Positions 25,466 to 54,360 of a DNA stretch of 64,000 bases are shown here, one piece after another (position 1 is the stretch's first letter; each line of letters starts with the position of its first letter). The notes under the pieces are model-generated. The model was not told where the DNA came from and did not search any database. It worked only from the letters and a program-made list of their open reading frames with translations. Origin of the DNA: Siphonodentalium dalli (lineage: Eukaryota; Mollusca; Scaphopoda; Gadilida; Siphonodentaliidae); the NCBI GenBank assembly GCA_032622095.1, contig CP136067.1, positions 93,300,707 to 93,364,706 of the forward strand, written 5' to 3'. The translations under genes were made by a program, and so were the position numbers.

Positions 25466-25775
25466 GAAATACTATACTAGCCATAAGGTTTCTCAAATCA
25501 CGCAGGTAACTATTTGTCATCTTAGCAGCTGAACGAAAATATAAATATTTCGAAATCTGAATGTTATATTCTCGGTCTAAATTGCAGTAGCCTGAACACT
25601 AACTGCGTGGGATCCATTTAAAAATCAGATATTACAAAACCAAACCACTCTATTGATATTCTGGTTCCCTGGTTATCATCCTTGTCAGCATCCTTGTTAG
25701 ATATGGCAAAAAACGTGGTAAATTTTGTTTTGGTACTCGTCATATTTTTAGGGGCTAAGTGCAACTCAATCAAGA

Positions 25776-27009: not shown

Positions 27010-28475
27010 AGACGAAGACAATATCCACGGATGGGTTAAACACTTAAGAGATACTTCGACAAAAGGCGGTCGAACATACCTATATGGACCACCCAAGGTT
27101 CGGTGGATATCGATATTGAATTGTTAAAACGAACGATTCAAATTCACTACAAGACCAATACCGCACAGAATGGCGTAAAAACGATTGACGAAAAATGTAA
27201 ATGCCGGAATTACAAAATATTCAAATAATCAAATGAAATTATAGAATTATTTAATTAAATTGCCTAAAGCAGACGCACTGACAATGTTGACATTTAGATG
27301 TTCAAATCACCATTTACCAATCGAAACAGGGTCGTGGAATGATATACTGCTCAAGGATAGGTTATGTAAAAAGTGTAATCAAAATGTAATTGGTGATGAG
27401 TATCGCACATCACCGGACCAAGCATATTTTTTATCTATTTACCTATGGGCGTTTAATGAAGCATTTCCATTGGTTCAGTCTAATCCACCGAAGAAATATA
27501 TAAAAAATAACCATGCATGGATGACAAAAGGTCTCATTAACTCTTCCTTCGTTAAGAACAAATTATGCATACAAAAAATTAAAAATCCGTCAGTACTCAA
27601 CGTCGATAAGTATAAAACCTATTGTCGAATATACAAGCAATTAATCAGAAAGAGCAAACAACTATATTACAACAATGTTCTACAGGAGAATAAATTTGAC
27701 ATGCGACGTGCATGGGTCATCTTGAAAAACGCTCTAAAACTGTCAAATAACACTCAAAAAAATCCATCAAATTTATCAAATAAAAACACTGTCCTTTCGG
27801 AACCAGATAAAATAGCGCAGGCGTTTAACGACTATTTCGGGAAAATTTGTCAAAAAACTAGTGACGGCGTCCCCTGTCAGATAACATTTTTCAGACTACT
27901 TAACACATTCCAATACTGGAAATTTCTTCTTGTTTCCAACTGATGCCAACGAAATCCTGAAAATCTCTGATAACGTAATCAGAAAGGGAACCACTGACAT
28001 CAATCATCTCACATCGAAACTAATGAAAAGGACAATCCCCGAAACTTCAAGTGCACTGTCGCACATATTCAATTTATCATTCAAATTAGGAATCTTCCCC
28101 GATAGACTGAACAATTCAAAAGTAATTCCGCTCCATAAAAACGAGTCTCCTAATAAAATAACAAATTATATGCCCATTAGCATTTTATCCGTCTTTTCGA
28201 AGTTGTCTCTACTATATACCCCTTAATGCATCTGCTATGGTCATTTAGCTGAAAACAACGGTAAACCAACTAAGGACTCTACATTAACTATTTCCATAGA
28301 CATGGTCGAAAGAGTCATGAAATTTTACTAGAAAAACTACAGAAAACCATTGTTTTAATTCATACAGATGACTTGTTTTTATATAAAAGACAATAAACTG
28401 TTTTAACTAAGAAGAGACTACAGTCAAATGAACTTTCTGCTTTTGAGGTGTTCATAAAACAAGTTTTCTATATAA
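27010..28475 (+). pseudogene. Rearranged non-LTR (CR1/Jockey-like) retrotransposon remnant
   Basis: Three parts follow each other out of normal order. First (about 27130-27400, frame broken) is an element C-terminus: after 'YRTEW' and 'KCRNYKIFK' comes FRCSNHHLPIETGSW, then the cysteine pair LCKKCNQN. This tail normally follows the reverse transcriptase. It is then fused in frame (27260-27943) to the linker that normally lies between endonuclease and reverse transcriptase (HAWMTKGLINSS, KYKTYCRIYKQLIRKSK, AQAFNDYFGKI). After a frameshift, 27930-28226 gives reverse-transcriptase fingers (DINHLTSKLMKRTIPETS, FNLSFKLGIFPDRLNNSKVI). Beyond 28226 only broken frames remain; a 'DDLFLYK' near 28370 may be a relic of the catalytic motif, but this is weak. 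Nothing here could be active. Confidence 0.75.
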
Positions 28476-30409: not shown

Positions 30410-31990
30410 TAGTCAGAAATGGTAACGCCCTCAAGATCATATTATTAGCCATATATACAATATAACAACTTTAATGTCGTGATTGTGAAAAATATGTATA
30501 TAGGTAACGCCTATGTAGTTGATTATATGTGATATTTTTTTTCTAATTTCATTTGAAATAGTGGTCTGAATAGCGCTGAAATAGCATGCAGAATAATAAT
30601 CGGGCAAACATTTGCGATCTTCGTAACATGGTTCAAGTACGCAAACACAATCACGTTTCTAATCACATTTAGTATCCAATTACGCAAATACCGAGTATGT
30701 TTTATTTACATTTAGTCCACCACATCCTGCGACAGGGTCAGATATACTTGCCAATATACACACTAGGAGGGCGTAATGCTGATCTAAGAATGGCCTCAGG
30801 TAATGCACTCATGGTATGACCTCTCATAAGGATTAATTAAAATACATGCATGGTTACATGAGGGTAAATTAAAATATGATCACACCAGAGAGGATTAATT
30901 GAAATATGGTCCGATGAGGGTAATTTAAAATATGATCACATCACGGTTAATTAAAATATGGTCCCATGAGGGTTAATTAATATATCGTCCAATGGGGGTT
31001 AATAAAAATATGGGCCCATGATGGTTAATTAAAATTGTACCTTGATTGTTAATTAAAATATCGTCTCATGAGGGTTAATACAAAATATGGACCCATGGGA
31101 GTATTTGAAATATGGTCCCATTAACTTAAGGTCAATTAAAATATGGTAACGTGACTTAATTAGAGAATAAATATATGGTCCCATTATGAGGGTTAATTAA
31201 AATAAAAATATGGTGTCATCAGTGTTGATTAAACTACGGTCCCACTGGGGTGAAACACAATATAGTCCCATGAGGGTCAATTAAAATAGGGTCCAATGAG
31301 GTCTAATTATAATATGCCCCCTTCCCATGAGGATCAATTAAAACATGGTCACAGGAAGGGGGGTAATTTCTTAACATTCTTCAGTTCATATAGCATTCTG
31401 ATATATCTTCGGTATATATAAATAAAAATAGAAATGGAATATAACATGCCCATATTTGTCGCGTATAACTAAATGAAAAAGTTCAATAAACTATATTAAA
31501 TAACATGTTAAACACCAATATAAACAAACACCTCGTAGGATTCATGTTCGAATTAAATGTCTATACAATCGTCAAATCCCCGTGAACAGTATAATAGTAG
31601 ATAGCATTCCGATTTATATCACGTGAAAATAACCGAAAGATGTTCAAATAACAATGCAACAAAGCAGGTTAAAGAACAATAGAAACACATAACGCGCAGC
31701 GCGCTAATGGTTAATTCGCGAATTCCCGTTAGAATCAATCGGCTCGCACTTCTTGGCATGCGAATAACAAACCATGGATCAATCAAGCATGTCTCGAGAG
31801 ACCCCCCGCTGCATGAAATAATAATGTTAATGCCAATAAACGAAATTGAAATTCCCAACTATACCTTTTACCGGACTCGGCCTCGGGGTCGCACTACAAC
31901 TTTTAATACGTCCCAAAAATCCCCATTTCTATAAATAAAACAACCATGCGCCCAGTGAATACCAAGACACGGTAGCTGATTATACACCCG
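30410..31990 (+). repeat. Long duplicated repeat, copy A, with about 26-bp minisatellite
   Basis: From about 30610 it is collinear with 57990-59450, from 'tttgcgatct' through 'ggcctcaggtaatgcactc' to 'accggactcggcctc'. Positions 30830-31340 hold about twenty degenerate units of GGTTAATTAAAATATGGTCC plus CATGAG. Positions 30410-30460 are the inverse of 38775-38830, and the end module (31855-31925) recurs in the arms of the large inverted duplication. No transposase or polymerase was found; the class is unknown. Confidence 0.8.
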
Positions 31991-32449
31991 GAGACCGAAA
32001 TAATAACCTTGTGGTGACTCCACTATCGTTCTTTAACGTGCACACACCAAGGGGCATACGTTCAATTAGTTAGTTGTTTATAACCTATATTGGAGCGCAA
32101 GAGTGAACACATTTGATGCAGAGCGATATTATTTCAATGAAGTTACTAAATTAATGCAGATGCGCATTCACTATTTTGTTATTGTCGAGTTTTTGGTTGG
32201 TTACTCGCGTTATGAATAATCGTCTCATCGGTATCGTCTGCTCGGGCCAATGTTGGGGCTCACTATGGGTTATTATCACAATTTTCTGACATGATTATAC
32301 CGTATAAATCAACTGGGAGCCTCACACAGATGGAAGCATCTACTGATGAGTGACGTCTGCTCGAGTTGCGCACCAAATAACAGTAGAAACGGACTTCCAT
32401 GGACTCACAGCTCAGCCTCTTATCCACTAACGTGAGTATCCGTATTGGG
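31991..32449. other. No feature recognised
   Basis: Separates repeat copy A from the inverted duplication. No domain-bearing ORF. Confidence 0.3.
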
Positions 32450-34977
32450 ATGTGAAACATATTTTATTTGCATAATGTACAAAAGGGATTGGGGCATAAG
32501 TTTTTACAACTTGTGAAGCATAATCTCCCGATACAATATAATAACACACATGTAATGAAGATGACGGTAAAACGTATTTACAGGATGCTCATTTTTGTGA
32601 TATATAATTTGTATTGCCTTCCAAATGTTGTGGAAATTTGTGTTTAAAACAATGTGGCTTCATTATGATTGTTTCGAACGGTTAGCGAGTGCTAATATCT
32701 AATATATTAGTGTATGTTCGGGGGTTTAAAAAAAGTAAAAGTAGACAGTCATGTACTCTATTTTGGTTTTGAGTAGCGCTCTGGAAGAGAGTACGGATAA
32801 TTCATAAGAACGAGCATGTTTCTGGTGGAGGTTGGTCCATTTGTGAGATAACTGCCAGATAACAAATTGAAATTCCGGAAGAACTTTTAAGTGTATACAA
32901 AAATAATATACATATGTATAATCATTTAGGGGTAGAAACGCTTAGTCGCTGCAATATATTGCTGTGTGATGTAAAATAGTTTCATATTATTTTTTTTGGA
33001 CAAGATATGAGGTATTCACACATGAGTTCTGCAATATTGCTTATTGTGAGATTTTCACGGGATAGTTTCTCAGAAAATTCTGAGCGCTCTCTTTGGTACA
33101 ATGTGCACATGATGAAATAGTGATATGCGTCTTCATACCGGTTTCCACACGAACATGCAGTGCTGTCAGCGATATAGTTGTTGAACATATCAGATGGAAG
33201 ATCACTACACAAATTACGTTGGCGACAATGAAAAATGTTGTATTTCTGTGTCCAACGTAGAAATGTCGATGTGGACTGGGCGCGGGATCTATATGTTGCA
33301 AGTTGGTTTTAAAGGTAGAAGTTTATTACATTCCATGACCATCGCTGGGAAAATGACTGTTTGAAGTGTTCAGAATAGCAGTAATATGAATAAATTTACT
33401 GGGGCGTCTACAATGATAGTCTGCAACTTCGTGCGATCCTGGGGGGAGTGTAGTTGATAGCTATGAGGATGCTAAATAATTTACCTTTTTATAGAGTGCC
33501 TGAAATTTATGTATTTGACGTCTTTTATTGAGTGAAGGCCATCCAACGTCCTGTAATACCGTGTTGTCCGAAGCAGAACGGGTGATACCGCTGACTATCC
33601 GACCAGCCTGGATATGAAGCCGGTCAAGCTTTTCTAACATATATTTAGAGGCATTGTCCCAAACGGCATCTGAATAATCAAATAGTGATAAAATGTATGT
33701 TTTGTAAATAATTTCGATGGTTTTCCTGTTTAGTTGATATTTGATCCGAAGGAGTTGAGATAAGGGCGAGACAATCTTTTTGACAGAGCCTTCAATGGTA
33801 TATTGCACTGTGACCTGTGAGAAAACCGAGAGTTCACTTTCGAAGAAACTTTTACTAATCTGTTTCAGAACCACTATCTCAAAAATTTTAGCTACACATG
33901 GTTGAAGCGATATTGTTCGGTAATTTTTTGCGTCAGCGGGATCATCTTTTTTAAAAGTCGGGATCACGTTTGCGGATTTCCAGGACTTTGGGAATTTCTC
34001 TGAATTGATAGATTTCCTGAATAGAAGGACCAGTGGGGGTGAGCTATCGATTTTGCCGTTTCGCGGAGCATTCTAACGCTAATCCCATCGTGCCCATGGG
34101 CTTTGTTAAGTTTAAAAGATTTGATAGCTGTTTCAACCTCGGATTCTGTGAAAATCAAATATGGCATGGTGTTTGCACTGCGTTTCGGAACATTAGGCAG
34201 GTTATGATTAGCATCAATAATGGTAGAATTCGCAATGAAGCTGTCGTATTAAATTTTAGCTTTTAAACTATAATCGATTGCATATGTCTTATTGTTGGCA
34301 TGGATTGTACCGGAGGAGCTGTATAGTGGAGGGGATATTTTTTTGCTCGTTTCTTGTGTGGTAGGTAATGTATTATTCTCCAAAAGTCTCGCGGGTTAGA
34401 TGCTTCTCTTATTCGTTCTTCTAGGTTTTCTTCAAATTTCATTTTCACGTGCTTCTTCCTGTTATTGACTGTCTATTATATATTTTAGAACTTATGTCTG
34501 TATGTCTGTCTGTGTATGTATTTTATAGACTCGAAAACTGCCCAACCGATCCGACTCAAATCTGGTATGTAGTCCTACTTTGATCCCGGGAACAATATGG
34601 GCGGGTCCAATTTTACGTGCGACCGTGTCCTTAACCTGGACCTTGACCTCGCTCATATCCGATCATATAGGCATGTTTCTGGACCGCCCAGACGAAGTCG
34701 GGCATATCAGCTAGTTTCTTATATTTTTATATTTTATCCAAACTTCAGGATTTTCTTATTTCATGGCTTTTTTTCCTAACTCTGTCACGTTTTCGTATCT
34801 AAAACGGATGCCCGAATTGAACCAGATTGTGTCAGAAGTTCTTACTGTATGTATGATTGTTCTCGCCATTATGGACAGAAATTCTAATTGAAAGTTATTG
34901 GCAGCTGTGTTCACATCAGATGCACATGTTATGAGCTCATCCCAGTCGACATTGACACATCCGTATTGGGAGCACAA
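32450..34977 (-). pseudogene. Dead non-LTR retrotransposon (CR1/Jockey-like), left-arm copy
   Basis: Read on the minus strand. It starts in the region upstream of reverse transcriptase (34977-34756, ending IWFNSGIRF then a lysine-rich stretch) and is interrupted by a Helitron (34472-34714). It resumes with FEENLEERIREASNPRDFW and FTESEVETAIKSFKLNKAHG (RT fingers). A frameshift follows near 34050, then IPTFKKDDPADAKNYRTISL. The palm with the catalytic YADD is missing: text jumps from ELSVFSQ to the thumb region LLRIKYQLNRKTIEIIYKTY. The tail has a cysteine cluster (CSCGNRYEDAYHYFIMC), and the element ends at an AATAAA-type signal near 32460. The endonuclease is absent. It cannot transpose. Confidence 0.85.
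34472..34714 (+). mobile_element. Short non-autonomous Helitron inside the dead retroelement (left arm)
   Basis: Starts TCTATTATATATTTTAG and ends with the hairpin GCCCAGACGAAGTCGGGC, a short gap and CTAG followed by T, the Helitron 3' signature. It interrupts the non-LTR reading frame. The same insertion is present in the right arm (48665-48894), so it predates the duplication. Confidence 0.85.
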
Positions 34978-35808
34978 TGACCGACCATAATGGACACCGT
35001 TTACACAATTAACTATTACTGATAAGAATTACGAAAAGCTACTTGTAGTCGTAAGTTTTTCGGACTGTCCAAAAAGTTATTTTTGCAGAATTGACGAATA
35101 TATGAGTCCGTTTTATTTTTAGAAAATAGAGTCATTCAAATGTCTTGTCGCTCACACTAAGTTGATGTGGTTCTATTTGTCATGATAATAATATACTTAT
35201 TTGTGTTGCTATCAGGTCATAGTCAGCGGTGTAGTAGGATATAAAATTGCATGCACTGCTCATTAACGCCACCGGTCTATACTGTTGGGCAATTTTTTAG
35301 AAATCTGTGGACCTGTGTAGATAATTGTTTTTTCCGGTTATTTTGGGATGCGTTAAAGTTGTTCTGCGACCCCGAGTCCGGTAAAAGTTGGAATGTCCAA
35401 GTTCGTGAAAGTTCTATTGACTATGCCGATGATTTGAGAAGCTTTATTGTTTAGGATATTGTAGAAAGTCTAATCTGGCCGTGTCAAATTGAGCTATATC
35501 GATGGGATAATTCGTAGGACAACACATTTCGGGTTTTCGTGGGGTGTGTATTCGCTGGATGTCTTATAGTTGCAGTATATATGTAACTAATATGACCGCG
35601 TTAATTGCGTTCGATGTTTAGGTATGAACAATGGCTGGGCCATGCACACTTGGAGATTTTACGGCGGGAACCCAATTTTGTATCCGCATTTAGAAGCTTT
35701 ATGGTTTTGTGAATGAAAAACCTGCAGTAATAAGCCGTAGTTTTTTGTAATAATTTGAAGAATTAGTTGTTTTAACGGAATTCTAAGTAACCAATATATT
35801 TTATATTA

Positions 35809-36534
35809 TCTCTTCTATATATTTTGAGAACTCCTTGTATTCGAGAGATAGCCCACACCCTCCGGACCTCAATGATATGATCGTGAATGAGTATTGATAT
35901 ACCCCACTAAACTTTGACAAACACCAGTAATGGTGTGTAGATCATTTACATATCTCTCCTATATATTTTGATACAATCTATCTAATTTACATATCTCTCT
36001 TATATATTTATGTTTGTGTGTGTGTTGTACTTCATACAAATCTACGATTCTCGACCGATCGGGACGAAACTTGGTACGTGTGTGTAGTTTGACCAGGCGG
36101 TGGTCGTTGTCGTATTGGCGAGCCCGAGCGACGCCCGTGCAGCGCATGCGCAGACGAGATCTCGGAAACGGGTGGAGCTATCGACTTGAAATTTGCTATG
36201 TGAATGTATCTTGCGCCGGGTACAAATTTTATCGGGTCGCCGAGCCCCGTGCGACGCCCGTGCAGCGCATGCGCAGACGAGATCTCGGAAACGGGTGGAG
36301 CTATCGACTTGAAATTTGCTATGTGAATGTATCTTGCGCCGGGTACAAATTTTATCGGGTCGCCGAGTCCGTGCGACGCCAGCTTCGCGCATGCGCAGAC
36401 CAGATCTCGGAAACGGGTGGAGCTGCCGGGTACAATTTTTTCTTATTGAAACGCGTGGAGCTAAAAATTAAAAAAAAATATTAAAACAAATGTCATGTTT
36501 CGGAAAAGCCGCCGGTGGCGGGCTAACCTGCTAG
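35809..36534 (+). mobile_element. Helitron 1 of a three-element head-to-tail run
   Basis: Begins TC directly after an A and ends with the GCCGCCGGTGGCGGGC hairpin plus CTAG. It contains extra 5'-end-like sequences at about 35950-36010, suggesting nesting. It also contains a 123-bp tandem repeat at 36130-36430 (landmark GACGCC at 36130, 36253 and 36375). The 156-codon ORF across it repeats the same residues every 41 codons and is an artefact of the tandem repeat. Confidence 0.85.
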
Positions 36535-37575
36535 TCTATACTATATATTTTGAGACTTCGTATATATGAGTGTGTGTGTGTGTGTGTACTTCATAGAATC
36601 CAAAACGCGTGTACATATTGAGCTCAAACTTCCTATGTAAGTGTCAAATCCCACCGACACGACCGTGGTCGCGGTTTAGAGAAGCTCAGAGCACCCGTTC
36701 TCCAATCTCAAATCACCGGAAAGGCACGGCGTGGTTTAATCAAGTGATTATTTAATGAGCGTTTGTTTTTGACGCATCTCTATAAAGAGCGTCTGTTTCC
36801 CATTCAACGTTATTAGCATCTGCATAGTTATACGGGAACGCAAACGTTATCGTTCGAAATTTATTCCCTGCGAGCACGGATGGCGCGCTTTGTTTTTACA
36901 GTATATACCTTCGGTATATACCGAAATCATCCCAGATAATCACGAATATAGCATCAGATTTCTCCCCAGATATACCGTTATAAAGCTACTGGAATCTGCC
37001 AATCTACTATTAATATATATGTATATATGTGGGTACTTCATAGAATCGAAAACGCGTGTAGGAACGGGCATCCCCACGGCAATGTCCGCAAATATATATG
37101 AGTGTGTCCTTTATAGACTCGAACCGATTGAGCTCAAACTTGCTAAATATTCCAGGCAATGCCGATTGAGCTCAAACTTGCTACCTACGGGAAGTGTCAT
37201 ATATATGTGTGTGTCCTTTATAGACTCGAACCGATTGAGCTCAAACTTGCTAAATACGGGAAGTGTCATGGACGGGTTCATTGAAAAACAAAAAAAAATC
37301 GGGTAAAATTTAAAAACAAAATTAAAAAGGCACAATTAACTCCTTGAATAACCAAAAAAAATCGGGTAAAATTTAAAAACAAAAGCACAATTAACTCATT
37401 GAAAAACAAAATAATTAACTCATTGAAAAACTAAAAATTAAATTAAAATTGTCATGTTTCTGACTATTGCCGAAATTTGCTGCAAATGCAGCACAAGTGT
37501 CTCGGAACCTGTTGCAATTGCTTTTTCGAACAAAGCCATGGGACGAATGCCGCCAGTGGCGGGCTAACCTGCTAG
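36535..37575 (+). mobile_element. Helitron 2 of the run
   Basis: Starts TCTATACTATATATTTTGAG immediately after the previous CTAG. It contains GT-rich microsatellite tracts and repeated 'cgattgagctcaaacttgct' phrases. It ends with a GCCGCCAGTGGCGGGC hairpin plus CTAG. No Rep/helicase ORF is present. Confidence 0.85.
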
Positions 37576-38759
37576 TCTATTATATATTTTGGAAGATCTG
37601 TGTGTCTGTCTGTCTGTCTGTCTGTTTCCAATGGACTCGAAAACGGCTGAGCCGATTCGATGAAACTTGCTATGTGGGGGTATTTTCGGCCGGGGAGTGA
37701 CATAGGCCTATTAATTTGCCTGTGCGACACGACCTTGACCTTGAAATGACCCGAATATCACGGGATTTCGATGAAACTTGGTATGTGGTGGAATTTTCGG
37801 CCGGGGAGTTACATGGGCCTATTAATTTGCCCGTGCGACGTGACCTTGACCTTGAAATCGGGTCATTTCAATGTCAAACTGCCGAATATCACGGGATTTT
37901 GATGAAACTTGGTATGTGGGGGTACTTTCGTATGGGGAGTCTCATAAGACTATTCATTTGCCCGTGCGACGTGACCTTGAAATCGGGTCGATTCAAGGTC
38001 AAATCGCGAATTTTGATGGGATTTCGACGAAATTTGATACGTAGGGTTACTTTTGTCCACTGAAGGTATTGGACGGGTCGAGTCGTGACCCCGACCTGAC
38101 CTTGACCTTCAAAATGATCAATTCGAGGTCAAATCGGGTAAAACCGGATGGATTTCGAAGAGTACTTTTGTCGGGTACTTTTGTCCGAGCAGTGTTTTGG
38201 ACGGGTCAAATCGTTATCCCACCTGACCGATTTCGATGAAACTTGCTATCTGGGGGTATTTTCGGCCGGGGAGTGACCTAGGCCAATTAATTTGCCCGTG
38301 CGACGTGACCTTGACCTTGAAATCAGGTCATTTCAAGGTCAAACGCCCGAATATCACGGGATTTTGACGAAACTTGGTACGTGGGCGTACTTTCGTATGG
38401 GGAGTCTCATAAGCATTTTCATTTGCCCGTGCGACGTGACCTTGACCTTGAAATCGGGTAAATTCAAGGTCAAATCGCCAATATTGATGGGATTTCGACG
38501 AAATTTGATACGTATGGTTACGTTTGTTCACTGAGTGTATTAGACGGGTCGAGTCGTGACCCCGACCTGACCTCGACCTTCAAAATGATCAATTCGAGGT
38601 CAAATCGGGTAAAACTGGATGGATTTCGACGGGCACGTTTGTCGGGTACTTTTGTCCGGGCAGTGTTTTGGACTGGTCAAATCGTGAACCCACTTGACCT
38701 TGACATTCAAAATGGACAATTCAAGGTCAAAGCCCGGACGAAGTCGGGTCACCTTCTAG
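37576..38759 (+). mobile_element. Helitron 3 of the run
   Basis: Starts TCTATTATATATTTTGGAAG immediately after CTAG and ends GCCCGGACGAAGTCGGGTC, then CTAG followed by T. The interior repeats 'gacgtgaccttgaccttgaa' and 'gatttcgacgaaa' phrases several times. The same family lies at 53145-53487 on the other strand. ORFs of 77-115 codons here are read out of the internal repeats. Confidence 0.88.
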
Positions 38760-39359
38760 TAATTTATATTTATGACTAATAATATGATCTTGGTGGCGTT
38801 ACCATTTCTGATTATGGTTTACTTGTGTCTCTATGATTGGCTTTTCGAAACCGTAAGCGTATATATGTTCTACTAAAAAAATCCACTAAACAGCAGGGGG
38901 TGTCTGAAAAAAAAATTGCAGACACGAGACCTGAACAAAATCCGACCTCAGTGTACCCACCCCTCCCCTCCGTGCAAAAGCAAAAATAATATTTTCCTCG
39001 GCAAAAAATGGGACCCAACAACTTTATCGAATATTTGACACTACCTTTATACTAATGGTGTTATTAGGAATACCATCCCAAATGTATTCCTTTTCCACTG
39101 TTGTTTCCAATCCTGTTCAATTATCTATTGTACAATTTGATAATTACATGTGCCGTCGTACCATACCATTTAGTCTTCGCCATTATTATAAGGTACTTTA
39201 TTCTGTGAAACAAACTACCCGTATTTATAAACCTGCCTAAACACCAAATCTAACCTCAACATAATTTTGAGCGTTATTAATGTTGTACAATCCAGTGTTA
39301 AAACCAGGTGAATTCCAGGTATATTTCGTGTGTGTAAAATTGTCCAGCATATTGGCGGC

Positions 39360-39600
39360 GTGTAGTATATGTTAATCGATGTCGTAGATCTAGTGTAAGG
39401 ACGGCGTGGAGTATATGTTAATCGAAGTCGTAGGTCTAGTATACGGAGGTGGAGTATATGTTAATCGAAGTCGTAGGTCTAGTATACGGAAGTGGAATAT
39501 ATGTTAATCCAGTATACGGAAGTGGAGTGTATGTAAATCGAAGTCGTAGGTCTAGTATACGGAAGTGGAGTATATGTTAATCCAGTATACGGAAGTTCGA
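39360..39600. repeat. Minisatellite in left arm, about 45 bp
   Basis: Units contain GGAGTATATGTTAATCGAAG and GTCGTAGGTCTAGTATACGG. There are about five units, some shortened. The homologous array in the right arm (46500-46985) is about twice as long. Confidence 0.9.
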
Positions 39601-40382
39601 AATTCAATTACGAAGATACTCAAATTTGGTGGAATTTTTAAATTACCAATTTGGCATAAGACTCCCATGTTCTTCCACTAAGTCGGAAAACTCTCAGACA
39701 TGATAACATTTATTCAACACAAGTATTTACATTTTTACAGGCAGCCACGGAGAACAATATATAAGTATATCTTCTCAGGAAGAGTCCGTAGCAAGAGAGA
39801 TATCGAGAAGACAGTTTTAGAGAGTCAAGACTCTGACAAAGTATCTATATGCATAGAGGCCAACGCCCATCATCAAACCTGTGTCGATTCCCGATTGGAC
39901 CACGCAGGCAGTATGTCCACAACAGGTTTAATTTACATATATTCTTTGTGAACTCAACGGCCCGTAGAAATGATATAAAATCCTTTCACCCAGGTCGCTG
40001 TCCCACTGATATATATGTATAAATTATCGACTGAGGGCGATTACTCTGATACAGATTTAACCACAATCACGCCGTCTAACAGTAGAAAGTGTTACATAAC
40101 TCTTATCACCTTTTTCAAGATTTTTGTCCTAAGCCAAAAAAACTTGATGATTTCGTGATAGAGATCCAAACTATCCCATTTGGAATATGGATAGCTCTAA
40201 ATACAACATACAAGTTCCTAACACAGGAATGTCATAATCCGAGAAGTTCCTTGGGGCGAAATTGTTGATAACAGGGGATTGTTCCATAAAGTTCCAAAAC
40301 ACAAGAAAGTCATAATCCTAGAAGTTCCAAACGTTATTTCTTGAATAAGTTTTTGTTCTGTTTTCGTTTGGCTTTCTACATA

Positions 40383-40540
40383 GTTGATTCTGATCCAACG
40401 GTGGGAAATACTGGTGCCTTTCCCTACTATTCCGTTCGTCCTAACTATATCCCGAATAATCGGTTGATTCAGATCCAGCTTTGGGAAATAGTGGTACTTT
40501 TCCCTACTATTCCGTACGTCCTGGCTATATCCTGAATAAT
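40383..40540. repeat. Two-copy 80-bp tandem repeat (left arm)
   Basis: 'gttgattctgatcca', 'gggaaatactgg', 'tttccctactattccgt' and 'cctgaataatcg' recur in order 80 bp apart. The mirrored copy is at about 45585-45745. A 64-codon ORF spans it in both arms but differs at many residues between arms, so it is not taken as a gene. Confidence 0.85.
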
Positions 40541-41171
40541 CGCCTTGTTTCGGTACGAAAGTTGATTAAATTTCAACGTTACCTTGAATTTGGGCGTAAT
40601 TTGGTTAAGGGTCAATATATTTATAGTAATGTCTAGTGTAGGACTTCATATGGCCGCTGTGTAAGAACTGAAATTAATTAAGTCTAATGATCTTGGCATC
40701 AGCGTGTAACACCACACTGTACGTGTAACTCCACGTGTTCATTCATTGAAATGCCATTTGAACCGACTAAACATTTTAGTTGGGCTTAAAGGCCCTATAC
40801 AAGCATGTACAAATGCTCTATAACATAAAATTTTACTAAATTGTAGGCATCGACGTGTTGGACCACGCCGTTCGTGTAACAGAACTATTTCATTGCCTTG
40901 AAATGCCAATTTGAACATAACCTGCGGATATCAAGTCATTTCATTGACTACCCGAATCACAGGCCCTTTATTAGTGCAAATATTAGGCATATCTGTCGAG
41001 GTACTCATAATTTGTCAGCCAGTAATTCTAACAACTATCCTATAACATAAGCAACATATATATCAAGAGTAAATGGACATTATTCTATATAAATGTCATA
41101 TATTTTATATATCTATTCCTTGTGAATTTTTCCCGGCAGGATTCGTTACACCGAAATCTTTGCATGACATC

Positions 41172-44100
41172 GCATATTCTTAAAACTCGAACTGCCATTC
41201 ACAACTATAACCTAAATGTACACACTCGGAGGCAATTTGCTAATGACATATTGGTTCCAATAACTAAATATGGGTCATTGATACAAAACATATCCTGATT
41301 CATTGGATTCATTTCATTTTTGTTTTCTATGTGATTGTTAAGGGTAAGTTCTGTTATTAAAAACTCCTAATATCTGTGTGACCCACTTTTAAAGATAGCA
41401 GTGTTTTCATTAACTTTTTTTTATATTTAATTATTTGTTCATGATATATTCTATTCCAGATATTCTATGCCGTCAATAGACTCTCAGACATGATATGGAA
41501 TCATGTGAGTGCAGTATTACCCGCAGACACTCTAATATACCGGAATAGCTTTAATCATAGCACAATCAATTTTCTATACATTTTTTTTGTGTGGTTTCAC
41601 CATGATTGATTAGTCAGTTACATGCCTTACTTTACGACTTGTTCGAAACCTGAACACATTAAAACGATTCTGATTAACTTGTATAACGCATACCTACAAT
41701 GACGATACATGTACATCGATCTATATATTTTTAAAAATCGAAATTTTAACCCAATTCGAGCGTGTCGTAACACAAAATACCACTAACTATGGGTGTAGAT
41801 ATACTTGCAAAACATTTGAACTATTTGGCTAAACTGAAACATTCCCGAACAATTGTTTTTAATACTTCAAACTTCAAGCATCTATATCTTCTACAAATTA
41901 TTTAATTTAAGATTTCTTGAATCACCTATCTCACTTGAACTAACTTATTGCTAAACATATACATTTCTCTGGGCGCAACCAGTCTCTTGACAACTGCCAT
42001 AAATAACTATATTTTTTTCAATAGATTATCCGAGCACAGTAAAACAACATTTAATTTACTGACAGAACAACTTTAACTAATTCCCAAACCATGATTTGTT
42101 CAACACAAGAACTCACTGAAATCATACTGACTAACTTGACAACATCCTAAAATCAGCAGTAAATTTTATAGACCTATATAACCGGCATAATGGTGAGACA
42201 ATTTAATACCTGTTTAACCAGAATTTCCTAGAAACATTTTCGTTCAGTGATCTACATTATTAAAAAGTAATTTATTCTAGTGAATTCTTAAGCCTAATTA
42301 TACTTCCATGGTGTAACCAAGGAAGTATATTGTTTTTCTATTGCGGCCGTTTTCAGTTTTATTGAAAATACTCAGAAACTAATTGGAGGAGGACCGTGAA
42401 ATCTCTAGGGAATGTAGGCATCTAAGGGATACAGAAAATGAAGATATTTCTGTATAATTTTTTTTTTTAATTTCATTCCGTGGCGAAGCGTTCTGGCGAC
42501 ATCGCGATACCTTCATTTTCAGTATCCCTCAGATGCCTACGTTCCCTAGAGATTTCACGGTCCTCCTCCAATTAGTTTCTGAGTATTTTCAATAAAACGG
42601 AAAACGGCCCCAACAGAAAAACAATATACTTCCTTGGTTACACCGTGGAAGTATAATAATAGAGAAAATATTGAGATGAAAGAATCGCAGTTTAGTAATA
42701 CAAAATGTTCAGTTGTGTGACCATATGTTATCCTGGCTTTTGTATTTTCATCTGAAGTGTATGGGAGTGACCCCTCCCCTGCCTCGAAACTGTGTGACGG
42801 GATAAGCACATTGTCAACCCCGGCTCAAAATGCGAACTTTGAGGGCCCGTAACTTCGTTATTTACCAACGGATTTTAAAACTGTTTTCAGTTTTGTGATC
42901 TGCTGCTCTCAGAGATGCAATGGTATGGATTTCAGAGACGAATAACATTTTGAAATTGACAAGCATATGTGCCCAATTTTAAACTTTGAGGAATCAAATC
43001 TCCGACATTTTCCAACGGATTAACGATCTGTTTTCAGTTTCCTAATCAGCCTGTACGGTAGATGTTATATTCCAAGTTTCATCTGATTCTGAGACCAAAA
43101 CAAATTGGGACCTGGGACCACCCCCTCCCCAAACCCACAATACTGAACCGAACCTGACAGATTTTGGCGCACCACATGCGCTCTTTATTCCGGTCACACC
43201 AGCGTGTGATACGGCTACTTTCAGAGGAGTTGCGGTCGTTAGCAGATCAGCGCAAAAATGCGAATTTCCAGGACCAACAACTCTGGTGTTTCTAATCGGA
43301 TTTTAAAATTTCGTTTTGCTGTATGATCAACTTCACTCATGGAATGCCCATACCTTAATAGACTACTTTCGTTAAGATTTTTTTTTTTTTCGAAAAATTT
43401 GCCCCTACCCCAATGTAAATATATATGACCGACCCTGTCCAGTTTTTGTTTTCGCAATGAACTGACAACTACCAAGAGGACTGCGAAAACCGAATTCGGT
43501 TATCTACAATTATACAAAAGAACAGCTGAGTACAACCAATTTGAGGTTTGCCTATTTATGGGCCGTAACTCCTCAGGAAAAGCTCGGACACAAGTTTTGA
43601 TGCCGTTGGTCTGTAGGGCATATCGAGTCGTGCATACGGTCCAATTTTCGATGCTTTGCTCCTTATAATTTCCGAGATAATAAAATTACATGTTTTCGTA
43701 TAACGGGAGATAACTCTGCGAAGAAAGCGCGGACAATATTCGTTATGCGACTAAGGCATAAAACTCATTTGCCCCAACATACTTACCAACTTTTAGTTTT
43801 CTACTGCTCATTCTTTCCGAAATAAAGTGATTATAAAAGTGTGGAGTATTTTAATAATAATAATAGTGAAAAATAAAAAAAAAATTAATTTCATTCCGTT
43901 GGCAAATTCCACCGGAAACAAATGTGGAAAATTACTTTAAAAATCAAACTATGAGACAAAAATTTGTTGACGTGGTCAGCAGTATCCGGTGCAACTTTGA
44001 ACGATTGTATAAGTTTTAGAGTGGACCGTTTAATCCTTGTAGCGCGTAACATTGTTAACGGGTGAAACATATTACTCAAATTCAACCGCACCATTCTTGA

Positions 44101-44954
44101 TGCCAAATTCAAACGGGTTTATCAAGGAGCAAGCTAATGCACGAGCAGGTACAACGATATACCATAGATACGCCCCTAAAGATTTACTGCCCTGCCCGAG
44201 AGAGTGCGAAACAATGGAAAATCGGGAATCTACTCAATCTAGTGTTTTATATTTTTAACAATGCATGTGTTTGGTAGTATATATACGATCACCATTGGTT
44301 TTAAAACGGGCGGGTAAGCACTCGGATGACATTATCGATTGTGATATAGTTATCTCTTGATTACTGTTAACTCTATTACAAAGACGTTAATGAGTATAGT
44401 GTGGCGATGACCTCTGAATTAATTAATAAGCGGTCTTTCCTCTTTCATTAAAACGAACAATTCTGAATCAGAAACTGAATGTACTATCCACTAAATGCGA
44501 TATAACAGAGTTATTTTACATTAATATGATTTGCACCCTTTTGATATATATACATGCCGATTACTCTATAATCAGACACACCAAATTTCGTGACCGTTGA
44601 ACAGGATTTGGGCATCCAGGGGAGCGGTTATAATTAGCCATAAAATGTATCCCTACTGAATACAAATGAACTAATTGACTGGGTGAATGGTGACTCAGTT
44701 GGTCAGGACCATGATGCATTAGACAGTCATTAATCATCATGACATAAACCTTTGGAGTATATTTCTTATTTAGAAATGTCAATGCAAGTCCACAATCGGA
44801 TCATTAAGCACCAATATGCATTCGCATGAAGAGGAAAGGAACACACATATACGCATACCAGTCACATGGGATGGGATGGGATGGGATACCATGGAAGTAT
44901 ATCTGATTCCATGGAATCTGACCTCTAGTTATCTCTATTATCCTAACAATACCA
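41172..44954. other. Spacer between the arms of the inverted duplication
   Basis: AT-rich single-copy-looking sequence apart from a MITE at 42301-42653. Degenerate repeats of 'ccaacggattttaaaactg' and 'ttttcagtt' lie at about 42845, 42980 and 43270. Positions 43850-43905 resemble the centre of the MITE ('ttaatttcattccgt'). No gene was recognised, and there is no candidate transposase between the arms. Confidence 0.6.
42301..42653. mobile_element. 353-bp fold-back MITE with TA target duplication
   Basis: TACTTCCATGGTGTAACC begins the left end and its near-exact inverse closes the right end, with TA flanking both (42299-42300 and 42654-42655). Arms of about 140 bp pair almost throughout, leaving a central loop around 'ttaatttcattccgtggcg'. 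TA duplication suits Tc1/mariner-type mobilisation; the transposase is not here. Confidence 0.9.
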
Positions 44955-46499
44955 GATGTCACGCAAAGAATTCGGTGTAACGAATCCTGCTGGGAAAAAT
45001 TCACAAGGAATAGATATATAAAATATATGACATTTATATATAATGTCCATTTACTCTTGATATATATGTTGTTTATGTTACAGGATAGTTGTTAGAATTA
45101 CTGGCTGACAAATTATGAGTACCTCGACAGATATGCCCAATATTTGCACTAATAAAGGGCCTGTGATTCGGGTAGTCAACGAAATGACTCGATGTCCGCA
45201 GGTTATGTTCAAATTGGCATTTCAAGGCAATGAAATAGTTCTGTAACACGAACGGCGTGGTCCAACACGTCGATGCCTACAATTTAGTAAAAGTTTATGT
45301 TATAGAGCATTTGTACATGCTTGTATAGGGCCATTAAGCCCAACTAAAATGTTTAGTCGGTTCAAATGGCATTTCAATGAATGAACACGTGGAGTTACAC
45401 GTACAGTGTGGTGTTACACGCTGATGCCAAGATCATTAGACTTAATTAATTTCGGTTCTTACACAGTGGCCATATGAAGTCCTACACTAGACATTACTAT
45501 ATATATATTGACCCTTAACCAAATTACGCCCAAATTCAAGGTCACGTTGAAATTTAATCAACTTTCGTACCGAAACAAGGCGATTATTCAGGATATAGCC
45601 AGGACGTACGGAATAGTAGGGAAAGGTACCACTATTTCCCAACGCTGGATCTGAATCAACCGATTATTCGGGATATAGCTAGGACGAACGGAATAGTAGG
45701 GAAAGCCACCAGTATTTCCCACCATTGGATCAGAATCAACTATGTGGAAAGACAACAGAAAACAGAACAAAAACTTATTCAAGAAATAACGTTTGGAACT
45801 TCTAGGATTATGACATTCTTGTGTTTTGTAACTTTATGGAACAATCCCCTGTTATCAACAATTTCGCCCCAAGGAACTTCTCGGATTATGACATTCCTGT
45901 ATTAGGAACTTGTATGTTGTATTTAGAGCTATCCATATTCCAAATGGGATAGTTTGGATCTCTATCACGAAATCATCAAGTTTGTTGGCTTAGGACAAAA
46001 ATCTTGAAAAAGGTGATAAGAGTTATGTAACACTTTCTACTGTTAGACGGCGTGATTATGGTTAAATCTGTATCAGAGGTAATCGCCCTCAGTCGATAAT
46101 TTATACATATATATCCGTGGGACAGCGACCTGGGTGAAAGGATTTTATATCATTTCTACGGGCCGTTGAGTTCACAAAGAATATATGTAAATTAAACCTG
46201 TTGTGGACATACTGCCTGCGTGGTCCAATCGGGAATCGACACAGGGTTGATGATGGGCGTTGGCCTCTATGCATATAGATACTTTGTCAGAGTCTTGACT
46301 CTCTAAATCTCTCTTCTCGATATCTCTCTTGCTACGAACTCTTCCTGAGAAGATATACTTATATATTGTTCTCCGTGGCTGCCTGTAAAAATGTAAATAC
46401 TTGTGTTGAATAAATGTTATCATGTCTGAGAGTTTTCCGACTTAGTGGAAGAACATGGGAGTCTTATACCAATTTGGGTGTAATTTTAAAATTCCACCA

Positions 46500-46985
46500 A
46501 ATTTGAGTATCGTCGTAATTGAATTTCGAACTTCCGTATACTGGATTAACATATACTCCACTTCCGTATACTAGACCTACGACTTCGATTTACATACACT
46601 CCACTTCCGTATACTGGATTAACATATATTCCACTTCCGTACACTAGACCTACGACTTAGATTAACATATACTCCACGGCGTCCGTACACTAGACCTACG
46701 ACTTTGATTAACATTACTCCACGGCGTCCGTACACTAGATCTACGACTTTGATTAACATATACTCCACGGCGTCCGTACACTAGATCTACGACTTTGATT
46801 AACATTTACTCCACCTCCGTATACTAGACCTACGACTTCGATTTACATACACTCCACTTCCGTATACTAGATTAACATATATTCCACTTCCATACACTAA
46901 ACCTACGACTTCGATTAACATATACTCAACGTCCGTACACTAGATCTACAACCTCGATTAACATATACTACACGCCGCCTATATA
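46500..46985. repeat. Expanded minisatellite in right arm
   Basis: Inverse of the left-arm array, with about ten to eleven units of CTTCCGTATACTAGACCTAC and GACTTCGATTAACATATACT. Unit variants include 'ggcgtccgtacac', which form their own sub-block. Confidence 0.9.
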
Positions 46986-48401
46986 CTGGACAATACCATT
47001 TTACACACACGGAATACATCTGGAATTCACCTGGTTTTAACACTTGATTGTACAACATTAATAACGCTCAAAATTATGTTGAGGTTAGATTTGATGTTTA
47101 GGCAGGTTTATAAATACGGGTAGTTTGTTTCACAGAATAAAGTACCTTATAATAATGGCGAAGACTACATGGTATGGTAGGACGGCACATGTAATTAGCG
47201 AATTGTACAATAGATAATTGAACAGGATTGGAAACAACAGTGGAAAAGGAATACATTTGGGATGGTATTCCTAATAACACCATTAGTATAAAGGTATGAC
47301 AAAGTGTCAAATATTCGATAAAGTTCTTGGGTCCCATTATATTAGTTTTGTTTTTGCACGGAGGGGAGGGGTGGGTACACTGAGGTCGGAATTTTTTTAG
47401 GCCTCGTGTCTGCAATTTTTTTTCAGACACCCCCTGCTGTTTAGTGGATTTTTTTAGTAGAACATATATACGCTTACGGTTTCGAAAAGCCAATCATAGA
47501 GACACAAGTAAACTATAATCAGAAATGGTAACGCCACCAAGATCATATTATTAGCCATAAATATAAATTATAATATAAAATATATTGGTTACTTAGAATT
47601 CCGTTAAAACAACTAATCCTTCAAATTATTACAAAAAACTACGGCTTATTACTGCAGGTTTTTCATTCACCAAACCATAAAGCTTCTAAATGCGGATAAA
47701 AAATTGGGTTCCCGTCGTAAAATCTTCAAGTGTGCATGGCCCAGCCATTGTTCATACCTAAACATCAAACGCAATTAACACGGTCATATTAGTTACATAT
47801 ATACTGCAACTATAAGACATCCAGCGAATACACACCCCACGAAAACCCGAAATGTGTTGTCCTACGAATTATCCCATCGCTATAGCTCAATTTGACACGG
47901 CCAGATTAGACTTTCTACAATATCCTAAACAATAAAGCTTCTCAAATCATCGGCATAGTCAATAGAACTTTCACGAACTTGGACATTCCAACTTTTACCG
48001 GACTCGGGGTCGCAGAACAACTTTAACGCATCCCAAAATAACCGGAAAAAAACAATTATCTACACAGGTCCACAGATTTCTAAAAATTGACCAACAGTAT
48101 AGACCGGTGGCGTTAATGAGCAGTGCATGCAATTTTCTATCCTACTACACCGCTGATTATGACCTGATAGCAACACAAATAAGTATATTATTATCATGAC
48201 AAATAGAACCACATCAACTTAGTGTGAGCGACAAGACATTTGAATGACTCTATTTTCTAAAAATAAAACGGACTCATATATTCGTCAATTCTGCAAAAAT
48301 AGCTTTTTGGACAGTCCGAAAAACTTACGACTACAAGTAGCTTTTCGTAATTCTTATCAGTAATAGTTAATTATGTAAACGGTGTCCATTATGGTCGGTC
48401 A

Positions 48402-50757
48402 TTGTGCTCCCAATACGGATGTGTCAATGTCGACTGGGATGAGCTCATAACATGTGCATCTGATGTGAACACAGCTGCCAATAACTTTCAATTAGAATTT
48501 CTGTCCATAATGGCGAGAACAATCATACATACAGTAAGAACTTCTGACACAATCTGGTTCAATTCGGGCATCCGTTTTGAGATACGAAAACGTGACAGAG
48601 TTAGGAAAAAAGCCATGAAATCAGAAAATCCTGAAGTTTGGATAAAATATAAAAATATAAGAAACTAGCTGATGTGCCCGACTTCGTCCGGGCGGTCCAG
48701 AAACATGCCTATATGATCGGATATGAGCGAGTCAAGGTTAAGGACACGATCGCACGTAAAATTGAACCCGCCCATATTGTTCCCGGGATCAAAGTAGGAC
48801 TACATACCAAATTTGAGTCGGATCGGTTGGGCAGTTTTCGAGTCTATAAAACACATACAGACAGACAGACATAAGTTCTAATAGATATAATAGACAGTCA
48901 ATAACAGGAAGAAGCACGTGAAAATAAAATTTGAAGAAAACCTAGAAGAACGAATAAGAGAAGCATCTAACCCGCGAGACTTTTGGCGAATAATACATTA
49001 CCTACTAAACAAGAAACGAACAAAAAATATCCCCTCCACTATACAGCTCCTCCAGTACAATCCATGCCAACAATAAGACATATGCAATCGATTATAGTTT
49101 AAAAGCTAAAATTTAATACGACAGCTCCATTGCGAATTCTACCATTAATGATGCTAATCATAACCTGCCTAATGTTCCGAAACGCAGTGCAAACACCATG
49201 CCATATTTGATTTTCACAGAATCCGAGGTTGAAACAGCCATCAAATCTTTTAAACTTAACAAAGCCCATGGGCACGATGGGATTAGCGTTAGAATGCTCC
49301 GCGAAACAGCAAAATCGATAGCTCACCCCCACTGGTCCTTCTATTCAGGAAATCTATCAATTCAGAGAAATTCCCAAAGTCCTGGAAATCCGCAAACGTG
49401 ATCCCTACTTTTAAAAAAGATGATCCCGCTGACGCAAAAAATTACCGAACAATATCGCTTCAACCATGTGTAGCTAAAAATTTTGAGATAGTGGTTCTGA
49501 AACAGATTAGTAAAATTTTCTTCGAAAGTGAACTCTCGGTTTTCTCACAGGTCACAGTGCAATATACCATTGAAGGCTCTGTCAAAAAGATTGTCTCGCC
49601 CTTATCTCAACTCCGTCGGATCAAATATCAACTAAACAGGAAAACCATCGAAATTATTTACAAAACATACATTTTATCACTATTTGATTATTCAGATGCC
49701 GTTTGGGACAATGCCTCTAAATATATGTTAGAAAAGCTTGACCGGCTTCATATCGAGGCTGCAGTGGTCGGATAGTCAGCGGTATCACCCGTTCTGCTTC
49801 GGACAACAGGGTATTACAGGAAGTTGGATGGCCTTCACTCAATAAAAGACGTCAAATACATAAATTTCAGGCAACTATTTAGCATCCTCATAGCTATCAA
49901 CTACACTCCCCCCCCCCCAAGGATCGCATGAAGTTGCAGACTATCATTGTAGACGCCCCAGTAAATTTATTCATATTACTGCTATTCTGAACACTTCAAC
50001 AGTCATTTTCCCAGCGATGATCATGGAATGTAATAAACTTCCCAAATTAATCGCTTACGCTGATAAATTGTCTACCTTTAAAACCAACTTGCAACATATA
50101 GATCCCGCGCCCAGTCCACATCGACATTTCTACGTTGGACACAGAAATACAACATTTTTCATTGTCGTCAACGTAATTTGTATAGTGATCTCCCATCTGA
50201 TATGTTCAACAACTATATCGCTGACAGCACTGCATGTTCGTGTGGAAACCGGTATGAAGAGGCATATCACTATGTCATCATGTGCACATTGTACCAAAGA
50301 GAGCGCTCAGAATTTTCTGAGAAACAAGCCCGTGAAAATCTCACAATAAGCAATATTGCAGAAATCATGTGTGAATACCTCATATCTTGTCCAAAAAAAA
50401 ATATGAAACTATTTTACATCACACAGCAATATATTGCAGCGACTAAGCGTTTCGACCCCTAAATGATTATTCATATGTATATTATTTTTGTATACACTTA
50501 AAAGTTCTTCCGGAATTTCAATTTGTTATCTTGCAGTTATCTCACAAATGGACCAACCTCCACCACAAACATGCTCGTTCTTATGAATTATCCGTACTCT
50601 CTTCCAGAGCGCTACTCAAAACCAAAATAGAGTACATGACTGTCTACTTTTACTTTTTTTAAACCTCCGAACATACACTAATATATTAGATATTAGCACT
50701 CGCTAACCGTTCGAAACAATCATAATGTAGCCACATTGTTTTAAACACAAATTTCCA
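48402..50757 (+). pseudogene. Dead non-LTR retrotransposon, right-arm copy
   Basis: Same structure as the left-arm copy: pre-RT region (IWFNSGIRFEIRKRDRVRKK), Helitron insertion, RT fingers, the shared frameshift, the shared loss of the YADD palm, then thumb, cysteine cluster and C-terminus ending QQYIAATKRFDP. It has private damage, such as a frameshift after DRLHIEAA near 49765 and a shortened stretch near 49875. It is cut at 50757 within the 3' UTR. Defects common to both arms show it was inactive before the duplication. Confidence 0.85.
48665..48894 (-). mobile_element. Short non-autonomous Helitron (right-arm copy)
   Basis: On the minus strand it runs from TCTATTATATC to the GCCCGGACGAAGTCGGGC hairpin and CTAG. 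It is the mirrored counterpart of 34472-34714 at the same site of the same retroelement. Confidence 0.85.
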
Positions 50758-51654
50758 GGGACATGACAATCTGCAGGATGGGATGGGATATGGGACAAAA
50801 CGACAATCTGCGGGACAGAATTTCAAATTGCGTGGGACGGCAGATATCTCGAGGAATACAGGGCGTAGATGGCTCCTTTTGGTGTCTAACGAAAGGTCCA
50901 CATTCGCCCTATCCACACAAATTAACCCCGCCACTGATCGGACACCGGACGTTACATTATTCGGTCGACAACTGACCTAACATAAAATGCCACAAACACG
51001 AAAAACTGCGTTCGACATTAATGTTTAGAATTTAGATTTCTCGATGAATACGCTAGCAAACAACAAGTCTTCGGTATCAAATAACAAATGCGAATATTGT
51101 AATGGCGAACACGCAAACACGCGCCGATAAAACAGCTAAAAATAGACTCGATGTTTACAATTACAGGATCGATTTCAGCTGGTATATTCAATATAATGGG
51201 GCGTATAGAGTATCAAAATGTAGGATTAGACACAGTGAATGTGTTTTTTCCAAATGGGTCCACTACGCGGTGAAATTGTTGCAGAAATTCGCTCCAAGAA
51301 AGAGCGCTACTTTTCTCGTAAAAAATAGAATGGCCGACTGAAGCCGTTCTATCGTTCCAACTTAGCCGTTCTTGGCAGCACTTCATCCACAAAATACGAA
51401 TATACACCATGTATCAGAAGACATATCAAATGTAAACTTTAAAAGGTATTTGCGCTTTTCATTTGTTATAATTCACACTTATTTTGTATTTTAGTTGTGA
51501 TTAAAAGCCCAGGCCGGAAGCCGGTGTCCGGCGATTACAAGCCAAGTTACAAAATAAATTAACTGGTTTGAATGCATGAATATGTTAATGGTCAGACTGC
51601 TCGAAAGAATATTCAAATCAAATAGTGCTTATAGACTTAAAAACTTATGTGTCC
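50758..51654. other. No gene recognised
   Basis: Begins with GGGAT-type short repeats (about 50778-50800). Overlapping ORFs of 65-82 codons at 50686-51410 occupy several frames and lack domains. Confidence 0.35.
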
Positions 51655-52068
51655 GCCAGTCATATGCGGTGGAAGTTCTCATATTATCTGCTGGTCATAC
51701 GTGGGGGAGGTTCTCATATGAACATATTATCTGCTGGTCGTACGCGGGGGAGGTTCTCATATGAACATATTATACGCCAGTCATACGCGGTGGAGGTTCA
51801 TACTATCCGCCGGTCATACGAGAGGAGGTTTTCATATTATCATCCTGTCATATGTGGGAGAGGTTCTCATATGAACTTATTATCCGCCGGTCATACGCGG
51901 TGGAGGTTCATATTATCCGCCGGTCATACGCAAGGGAGGTTCTCATATTATCATCCGGTCATACGTGGGGGGGGGTTCTGATATGAACATATTATCCACT
52001 GGTCATACACGGTGGAGGTTCATATTATCCACCGGTCATATGCGAGGGAGGTTCTCATATTATCTCGA
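51655..52068 (+). repeat. Minisatellite, first half of a head-to-head array
   Basis: Eleven units in plus orientation. Each contains CCGGTCATACGCGG or a variant, then GGAGGTTCTCATATTATC or GGAGGTTCATATTATCC. Three length classes (about 32, 36 and 45 bp) follow each other. Apparent ORFs encode the repeat itself (YAVEVHIIRRS-like). Confidence 0.95.
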
Positions 52069-52695
52069 ATCAAATGAGGATAATATGAGAACCTCCACCG
52101 TGTATGACCGGCGGATAATGTGTTCATATGCAAACCTCCCCCGCGTATGACCGGCAGATAATATGTTCACATGAGAACCTCCACCACGTATGACCGGAGG
52201 ATAATATGAGAACCTCCCCCATGTATGACCGGAGAATAATATGAGAACCTCACTCATGTATGACCGGTGGATAATATGAACCTCCACCGTGTATGACCGG
52301 CGGATAATATGAACCTCCACCGCATATGACCGGCGGATAATATGTTCATATGAGAACCTCCCCCACGTATGACCGCAGGATAATATGAGAACCTCCCTCA
52401 CGTATGACCGGTGGATAATATGAGAACCTCCCTTGCATATGACAGGCGGATAATATGTTCATATGAGAACCTGCCCCACGTATGACCGGAGGATAATATG
52501 AGAACCTCCCTCGCGTATGACTGGCGGATAATATGAACCTCCACCGTGTGTGACCGGTAGATAATATGTTCATATGAGAAAATCCCCCGTGTATGACCGG
52601 CGGATAATAAAAATTATGTTCATATGAGAACCTCCCCCACGTATGACCGGAGGATAATATGAGAACCTCCCCCACGTATGACCGGAGGATAATAT
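52069..52695 (-). repeat. Minisatellite, second half in inverted orientation
   Basis: About sixteen units of the same repeat, all reversed. The switch lies at about 52068-52079 within a short unique core (TCGAATCAAATGAG). The array stops where a fragment of the inverted-duplication arm starts. Confidence 0.95.
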
Positions 52696-52696
52696 C

Positions 52697-52818
52697 AAAT
52701 CCTTTCACCCAGGTCGCTGTCCCACGGATATATATGTATAAATTATCGACCGAGGGCGATGACCTCTGATATAGATTTAACCATAATCACGCCGCCTAAC
52801 AGTAGAAAGTGTTACATT
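52697..52818 (+). repeat. Fragment of the inverted-duplication arm sequence
   Basis: Matches 39978-40097 in the left arm from 'aaatcctttcacccaggtcg' to 'aacagtagaaagtgttacat' with few differences, in left-arm orientation. Confidence 0.9.
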
Positions 52819-54002: not shown

Positions 54003-54207
54003 GCCAAATTTGAGTATCGTCGTATTTGAGTTTTCGAACTTCCGTATGCTGGACCAACGACTTCGATTGACATATAACTTCCGTATACTCGACCAACGAC
54101 TTCGATTAACATATAACTTCCGTATATTGGACCTATACGACTTCGAATAACATATTATCCACGCCGTCCGTATACTAGACCTGCTGCTTCGATTAACATA
54201 TACATGC
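54003..54207 (-). repeat. Arm-derived minisatellite fragment upstream of the receptor gene
   Basis: Collinear with 46490-46985 of the right arm ('caaatttgagtatcgtcgta', then CTTCCGTATAC and GACTTCGATTAACATATA units), with four to five units. It ends about 150 bp before the receptor start codon. Confidence 0.85.
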
Positions 54208-54335
54208 CATCAATGTCACACCATGTTGTCGACAATAAACAAAACTAACTTGCAATGTATCTATGAAATTGGCATTATTATACAAATATACGTTACGGTA
54301 CATATTGTATCCATCACGCGATCGTGGTTACAAGT

Positions 54336-54356
54336 AATCGTTTCTAATCGTTTCAG
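54336..54356 (+). other. Candidate 3' splice site before the receptor start codon
   Basis: A pyrimidine-rich tract ending TCGTTTCAG is followed four bases later by the ATG at 54361. This suits an intron in the 5' UTR, an arrangement common when an animal TLR has one coding exon. The matching donor is not identified. Confidence 0.5.
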
Positions 54357-54360
54357 GGCC

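Follow-up and report, generated by a model that had tools for sequence, protein, structure and literature searches.

The window, by which is meant the whole 64,000-nucleotide stretch of Siphonodentalium dalli DNA that was analysed (C7:93300707-93364706, in a genome of 2.23 Gb and 9 contigs), contains a pair of long inverted arms that are overlaid by transposable elements and separated by a spacer of several parts. The features of the locus, with the family names used below, are as follows.

32453-34950 (right end approximate), minus strand: 3' part of retroelement A, non-LTR-like, with matches elsewhere in the genome
32631-41176, plus strand: left arm, the parental copy, including a Helitron-like insertion (8546 bp; self-BLAST, global alignment)
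35809-38759, plus strand: Helitron-like insertion of 2951 bp, starting with TC and ending with CTAG, between A and T
39340-39620, no strand assigned: minisatellite in the left arm, shorter than its counterpart at about 46530-47000 in the right arm
39656-42276, plus strand: repeat family Y, colinear over the inner end of the left arm and broken at 42276
41177-42276, plus strand: single-copy loop of 1.1 kb, part of family Y (self-BLAST, global alignment, Y homologues)
42277-44928, plus strand: broken tandem-repeat element of 2.65 kb, comprising 18 bp, an inverted fragment with one unit U, and then Z
42294-43898: the inverted fragment together with a single U unit of 1.4 kb, a type arrayed in tandem elsewhere
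43899-44928: Z, a high-copy end module that closes with a palindrome and CTAG at 44928
44929-44954, plus strand: filler of 26 bp between Z and the right arm
44955-50757, minus strand: right arm, the derived inverted copy (5803 bp; self-BLAST, global alignment, genome search)
50750-50757, plus strand: presumed 8-bp target site of W, so designated from 8-bp duplications at two other W copies
50758-52695, plus strand: the left half of W, a foldback-like transposon, with its terminus exactly at 50758 and its right half broken at about 52695

None of the 16 frames of at least 100 amino acids, ten from the arms and six from the Helitron-like insertion, matched a Pfam family, including the broken frame of retroelement A, which by eye we take to resemble a reverse transcriptase (hence non-LTR-like), and two further scanned frames outside the arms and insertion likewise gave no Pfam match. 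Searches of the window with Rfam and ARAGORN found nothing. A receptor-like gene with LRR and TIR (Toll/interleukin-receptor) domains lies on the plus strand at 54151-56802, 3.4 kb from the inverted structure; it is interrupted by one in-frame stop at 55048, with Pfam matches in its two pieces. A molluscan toll-like receptor 4 is its best relative among named proteins, and those with the best scores are from Ylistrum, Littorina, and Haliotis (29-37% identity). Direct repeats carrying a 26-bp minisatellite flank the whole structure at 30610-31920 and 57999-59396 (82-89%), and a long tandem array with a 68-bp unit, part of it with a 135-bp period, occupies 25757-27023.

The inverted repeat described in the initial annotation is real, and its arms end at 32631/50757 and 41176/44955, within a few bases of the 32633, 50757, 41171, and 44955 given there. 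Self-BLAST of the window pairs 32631-35822 with 50757-47557 and 39343-41182 with 46785-44944 (95.7 and 96.1% identity, respectively, gaps counted), while 38760-39582, which includes the minisatellite stretch, matches 47570-46751 at 88.9%. The minisatellite itself is about 207 bp longer in the right arm, represented in the global alignment by gaps of 159 and 48 bp. When 39340-39620 is left out, that alignment contains 117 differences in 5260 aligned sites (p 0.0222, K2P 0.0226), so that outside the minisatellite the arms differ by 2.2% in substitutions alone, in keeping with the few per cent first estimated. Divergence in 250-base bins, in left-arm coordinates, ranges from 0.8 to 4.8%, with the last partial bin (46 sites, including the end of the arm) lying above this range.

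A 2951-bp insertion is private to the left arm, and its uninterrupted site is found in the right arm near 47570. Helitrons are hallmarked by a TC start, a CTAG end, and insertion between A and T. The insertion is Helitron-like in all of these respects, with a TC start, an end that fits CTRR, an A/T site without target duplication, and an empty site in the other arm; copies with one or the other end also occur elsewhere, the 115 genome matches including nine that begin at 35807-35809, four whose end is at 38760, and one (C9:55720186) that overshoots the 3' end by 13 bases. It differs from Helitrons in its weak 3' hairpin (z -1.17; an equally good fold in 19 of 200 shuffles), which speaks mildly against this identity.

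Crucial to reading the history of the locus is which of the two arms is the original, and repeats elsewhere in the genome provide an answer at both ends. At the outer end, other copies of retroelement A match arm positions 1-2332 (best 40 of 7736 candidates), and 38 of 39 other matches begin within 3 bp of 32453, with one beginning 11 bp earlier. All 39 other scored matches to 32400-32900, among the matches listed, continue across 32631. The element thus extends to about 32453 on the left, close to the 32450 proposed earlier, and is cut at 50757 on the right, as had been noticed. At the inner end, family Y is colinear at five places with the arm's inner third, starting near 39656 (best 40 of 480), matches to Y span 41176 at five other places among the matches listed, and all four Y sequences fetched track the left arm past 41176. 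Because copies of A and Y elsewhere in the genome cross the two ends of the left arm, and the right arm departs from both, one at each end, the left arm is parental at both ends and the right arm derived; the initial annotation had proposed this polarity from the right-hand junction. Judged by other copies of retroelement A, 34 of 126 differences between the arms fall into 18 derived on the left, 14 derived on the right, and two that are neither, and the arms share 146 derived and 1806 ancestral sites relative to those copies. The shared derived sites and the even polarisation point to one event followed by similar ageing of both arms.

A query with the full 5814-bp arm found no place in the 2.2-Gb genome besides the two in the window, the best 40 of 7736 candidates having been scored, a sample that could miss pieces of the arm although a third near-identical arm would be expected near its top. 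The remaining arm matches listed are pieces of 77-94% identity, and those to the inner third are pieces of 65-93% identity (best 40 of 480). No target site duplication is apparent by eye around the arms, as the bases beyond 32631 and 50757 differ.

The outer edge of the right arm coincides with a transposon end. A high-copy element, W, makes up the flank that begins at 50758 (best 40 of 2104 candidates). Since the genome query began at 50758, its matches could show no terminus and fetched flanks were used instead. Similarity starts with the same GGGA in all 16 W copies fetched and in one further locus (L070), with differing sequence before it; the 16 copies had been chosen for matching from position 1, so the actual test is their unrelated flanks, and as three of the copies share one flank these amount to 14 distinct flanks plus that of L070. 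The terminus reads GGGACATGACAATCTGC. Five pairs of W ends are inverted about 4-8 kb apart, with end repeat units of about 206 bp (best 40 of 2104), and both W pairs that were read are bounded by perfect 8-bp target duplications. Examples other than 50758-52695, which itself contains minisatellites, lie at C3:166085748-166093770 and C5:44898980-44905619. W is thus a foldback-like transposon, having long inverted ends with tandem repeats, a discrete terminus, and target duplication. Within the window only its left terminus is present, and the inverted right half ends at about 52695.

As 50758 is the terminus of W, the outer edge is not necessarily a duplication breakpoint. The junction first reported at 50757 is therefore correct in its position and in cutting the retroelement, but not as a proven duplication breakpoint, a status that was rejected because the edge coincides with the W terminus. 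The window contains no second copy of the presumed W target site, the right end of W being absent, and the piece of retroelement expected beyond W was not found in it. Directly after the broken W, a 129-bp piece (52689-52817) is 93-95% identical to 39970-40097 and 46025-46153 in the two arms. At L070 (1159-2000, on C2) and at C8:113888196-113888515, one other repeat directly precedes the W terminus, which perhaps reflects a shared insertion site or a duplication.

The spacer begins with the 1.1-kb loop, for which no inverted partner exists in the window. Beyond 42276, two fetched Y copies carry sequence other than that of the window, and none of 44 other Y matches goes beyond position 380 of the 394-base query; Y is accordingly broken at this point in the window. 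What follows is the U and Z sequence. Units of the 1.4-kb U type form tandem arrays at many loci (L040-L068). An inverted copy of the start of Z, 71-74% similar, adjoins the U array in 13 of 29 U loci fetched. This arrangement suggests that U and Z belong to a single element, the left side of which appears to be broken in the window, and which is perhaps an element carrying satellite-sized units. The spacer contains no stop-to-stop frame longer than 89 codons and so no frame of transposase size, bearing out the initial statement that it lacks a transposase.

Between Z and the right arm lie the 26 bases of filler. None of 39 other matches contains them in full; these end at positions 331-345 of a 363-base query in which the filler is 330-355, so that in alignment as many as 16 of the 26 bases are covered by some of them. 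Two fetched copies of that kind (L089 and L091) have a TTA run in place of the filler, and elsewhere in the window it has two 10-base matches only. The inner right edge at 44955 was correctly placed, and its first description was incomplete in that the terminus of a second element, Z, lies 26 bp away. The Z terminus was itself considered as the exact inner breakpoint and rejected, because these 26 bp separate it from the arm. A query of the joined flanks (44300-44943 and 50758-51400) has no uninterrupted copy among 40 matches listed, which comprise 37 Z copies, one W copy, and the two window halves; a pair of the Z copies run 1 and 6 bases past the joint. Both flanks are separate high-copy repeats, and this search therefore says little about an empty site.

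Two marks of a fold-back or template-switch inverted duplication are thus present in the window: a parental segment with its derived copy placed head to head, and a single-copy loop separating the two. The probable origin of this arrangement is a single local inverted duplication by fold-back or template switching, taken together. A replication- or repair-type rearrangement had been among the origins first listed, and it is judged the best reading, as the loop and the inverted copy fit it. In this process, a break or stalled fork would have arisen near 42276, and the end would have folded back, or the polymerase switched strand, to about 41176. Neighbouring DNA would then have been copied in reverse, with 1.1 kb of single-copy loop left between the original on the left and the inverted copy on the right. 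The Helitron-like element would later have entered the left arm, and W probably entered the right arm at 50757/50758. Such later transposon events would account for the unequal ends of the arms. A deletion would subsequently have removed the right half of W together with the rest of the right arm and the true outer breakpoint; it must be assumed, a point against this reading, since neither a second copy of the presumed W target site nor any right-arm remnant past W was found. The broken tandem-repeat element now at the inner junction may have arrived either with the event or afterwards. The usual sign of fold-back is microhomology at the inner junction, and template switching at a fork would leave joints identical to those of fold-back. 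Here the junction is occupied by the filler and the broken element, which mask the original joint and any microhomology, and the two routes are indistinguishable at this locus.

The foremost alternative is a templated insertion, in which a break between the ends of Z and W, arising for instance from aberrant transposition, was filled by a reverse copy of 5.8 kb of nearby DNA, so that both edges of the right arm are original joints. The position of the arm between the Z terminus and the exact W terminus suits this explanation, as does the missing retroelement tail, of which no remnant was found beyond W. The exact edge, however, needs no new mechanism if W landed in a longer right arm, the broken far side of W calls for a further rearrangement regardless, and 26 bp intervene between Z and the arm. 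Templated insertion is thus considered unlikely, and slightly more doubtful is the broader proposition that element termini serve as landing points for templated inverted duplications, whereby a transposon-associated break would be filled by kilobases copied in reverse.

An artefact of assembly, in which the divergent haplotypes of a single locus were placed head to head as if adjacent, is improbable to a greater degree. Haplotypes of marine invertebrates can diverge by 2.2%, so the divergence of the arms, judged on the assembly alone, is compatible with this source. Against it, the window has no N anywhere, the left flank (32010-32442) was matched at none of 39 other places scored among the matches listed, the edges of the right arm lie on or close to the ends of elements, and both arms carry private insertions. 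Marginally less credible again is a direct tandem duplication followed by inversion of one copy. This would yield the same two arms, and direct repeats of another family do flank the region, but it requires two events, whereas fold-back gives the loop beside the parental inner end for free. An origin of the arms as the inverted ends of a single foldback transposon, which the initial annotation had allowed, would suit their length and a spacer without a transposase-sized frame, but can be dismissed as most improbable, and a transposon family was ruled out, since two copies alone were found in 2.2 Gb (best 40 of 7736), both ends of the left arm lie inside other repeats, and no direct repeat is seen by eye outside 32631 and 50757.

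Local inverted duplications are already known, and the one probably formed here by fold-back or template switching is one more, distinguished by a later history that is unusually readable. It is a biologically ordinary event, with no Pfam family in the arm frames scanned and no apparent function. Its wider value is as an example of how the repeats of an invertebrate genome rich in them can be used to polarise and dissect an inverted duplication, and as a warning that what looks like a sharp 'breakpoint' can be the end of a transposon.

Among known systems, the closest parallel to the duplication is provided by the human germline fold-back inverted duplications (Hermetz et al., 2014; PMC3907307), which, in the portion of that report consulted, have an inverted copy, a single-copy spacer that ranges from about 1 kb to several kb, and junction insertions in some cases. 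Spacers of 766-70,466 bp are given there for 21 of 21 sequenced junctions and insertions for five of the 21, and the 1.1-kb loop and inserted junction sequence described here resemble these. The human cases in that portion span far more DNA and finish in a terminal deletion or a translocation. The present duplication is kilobase-scale, 2.2% diverged, interstitial, overlaid by transposons, and without terminal deletion, the chromosome continuing beyond it, and this contrast in size and ending tells against the fold-back reading. W can be compared with the Tetris foldback transposon of Drosophila virilis as presented in the part of PMC4079207 consulted, both having long inverted ends and internal tandem repeats (about 220 bp in Tetris and about 206 bp in W), with target duplications of 8 bp in W and of 8-9 bp in the three complete copies of Tetris. 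This likeness is structural, and W adjoins the duplication and is not the duplication itself. Z and U recall the Cg_HINE non-autonomous Helentrons of the Pacific oyster, to judge from the sections of PMC7492417 available to us, in having tandem repeats between end modules, a palindrome near the 3' end, and T-rich insertion sites; they differ in that the left module is missing from the window and that the U units are about 1.4 kb, compared with the 100-500 bp units screened in that survey.
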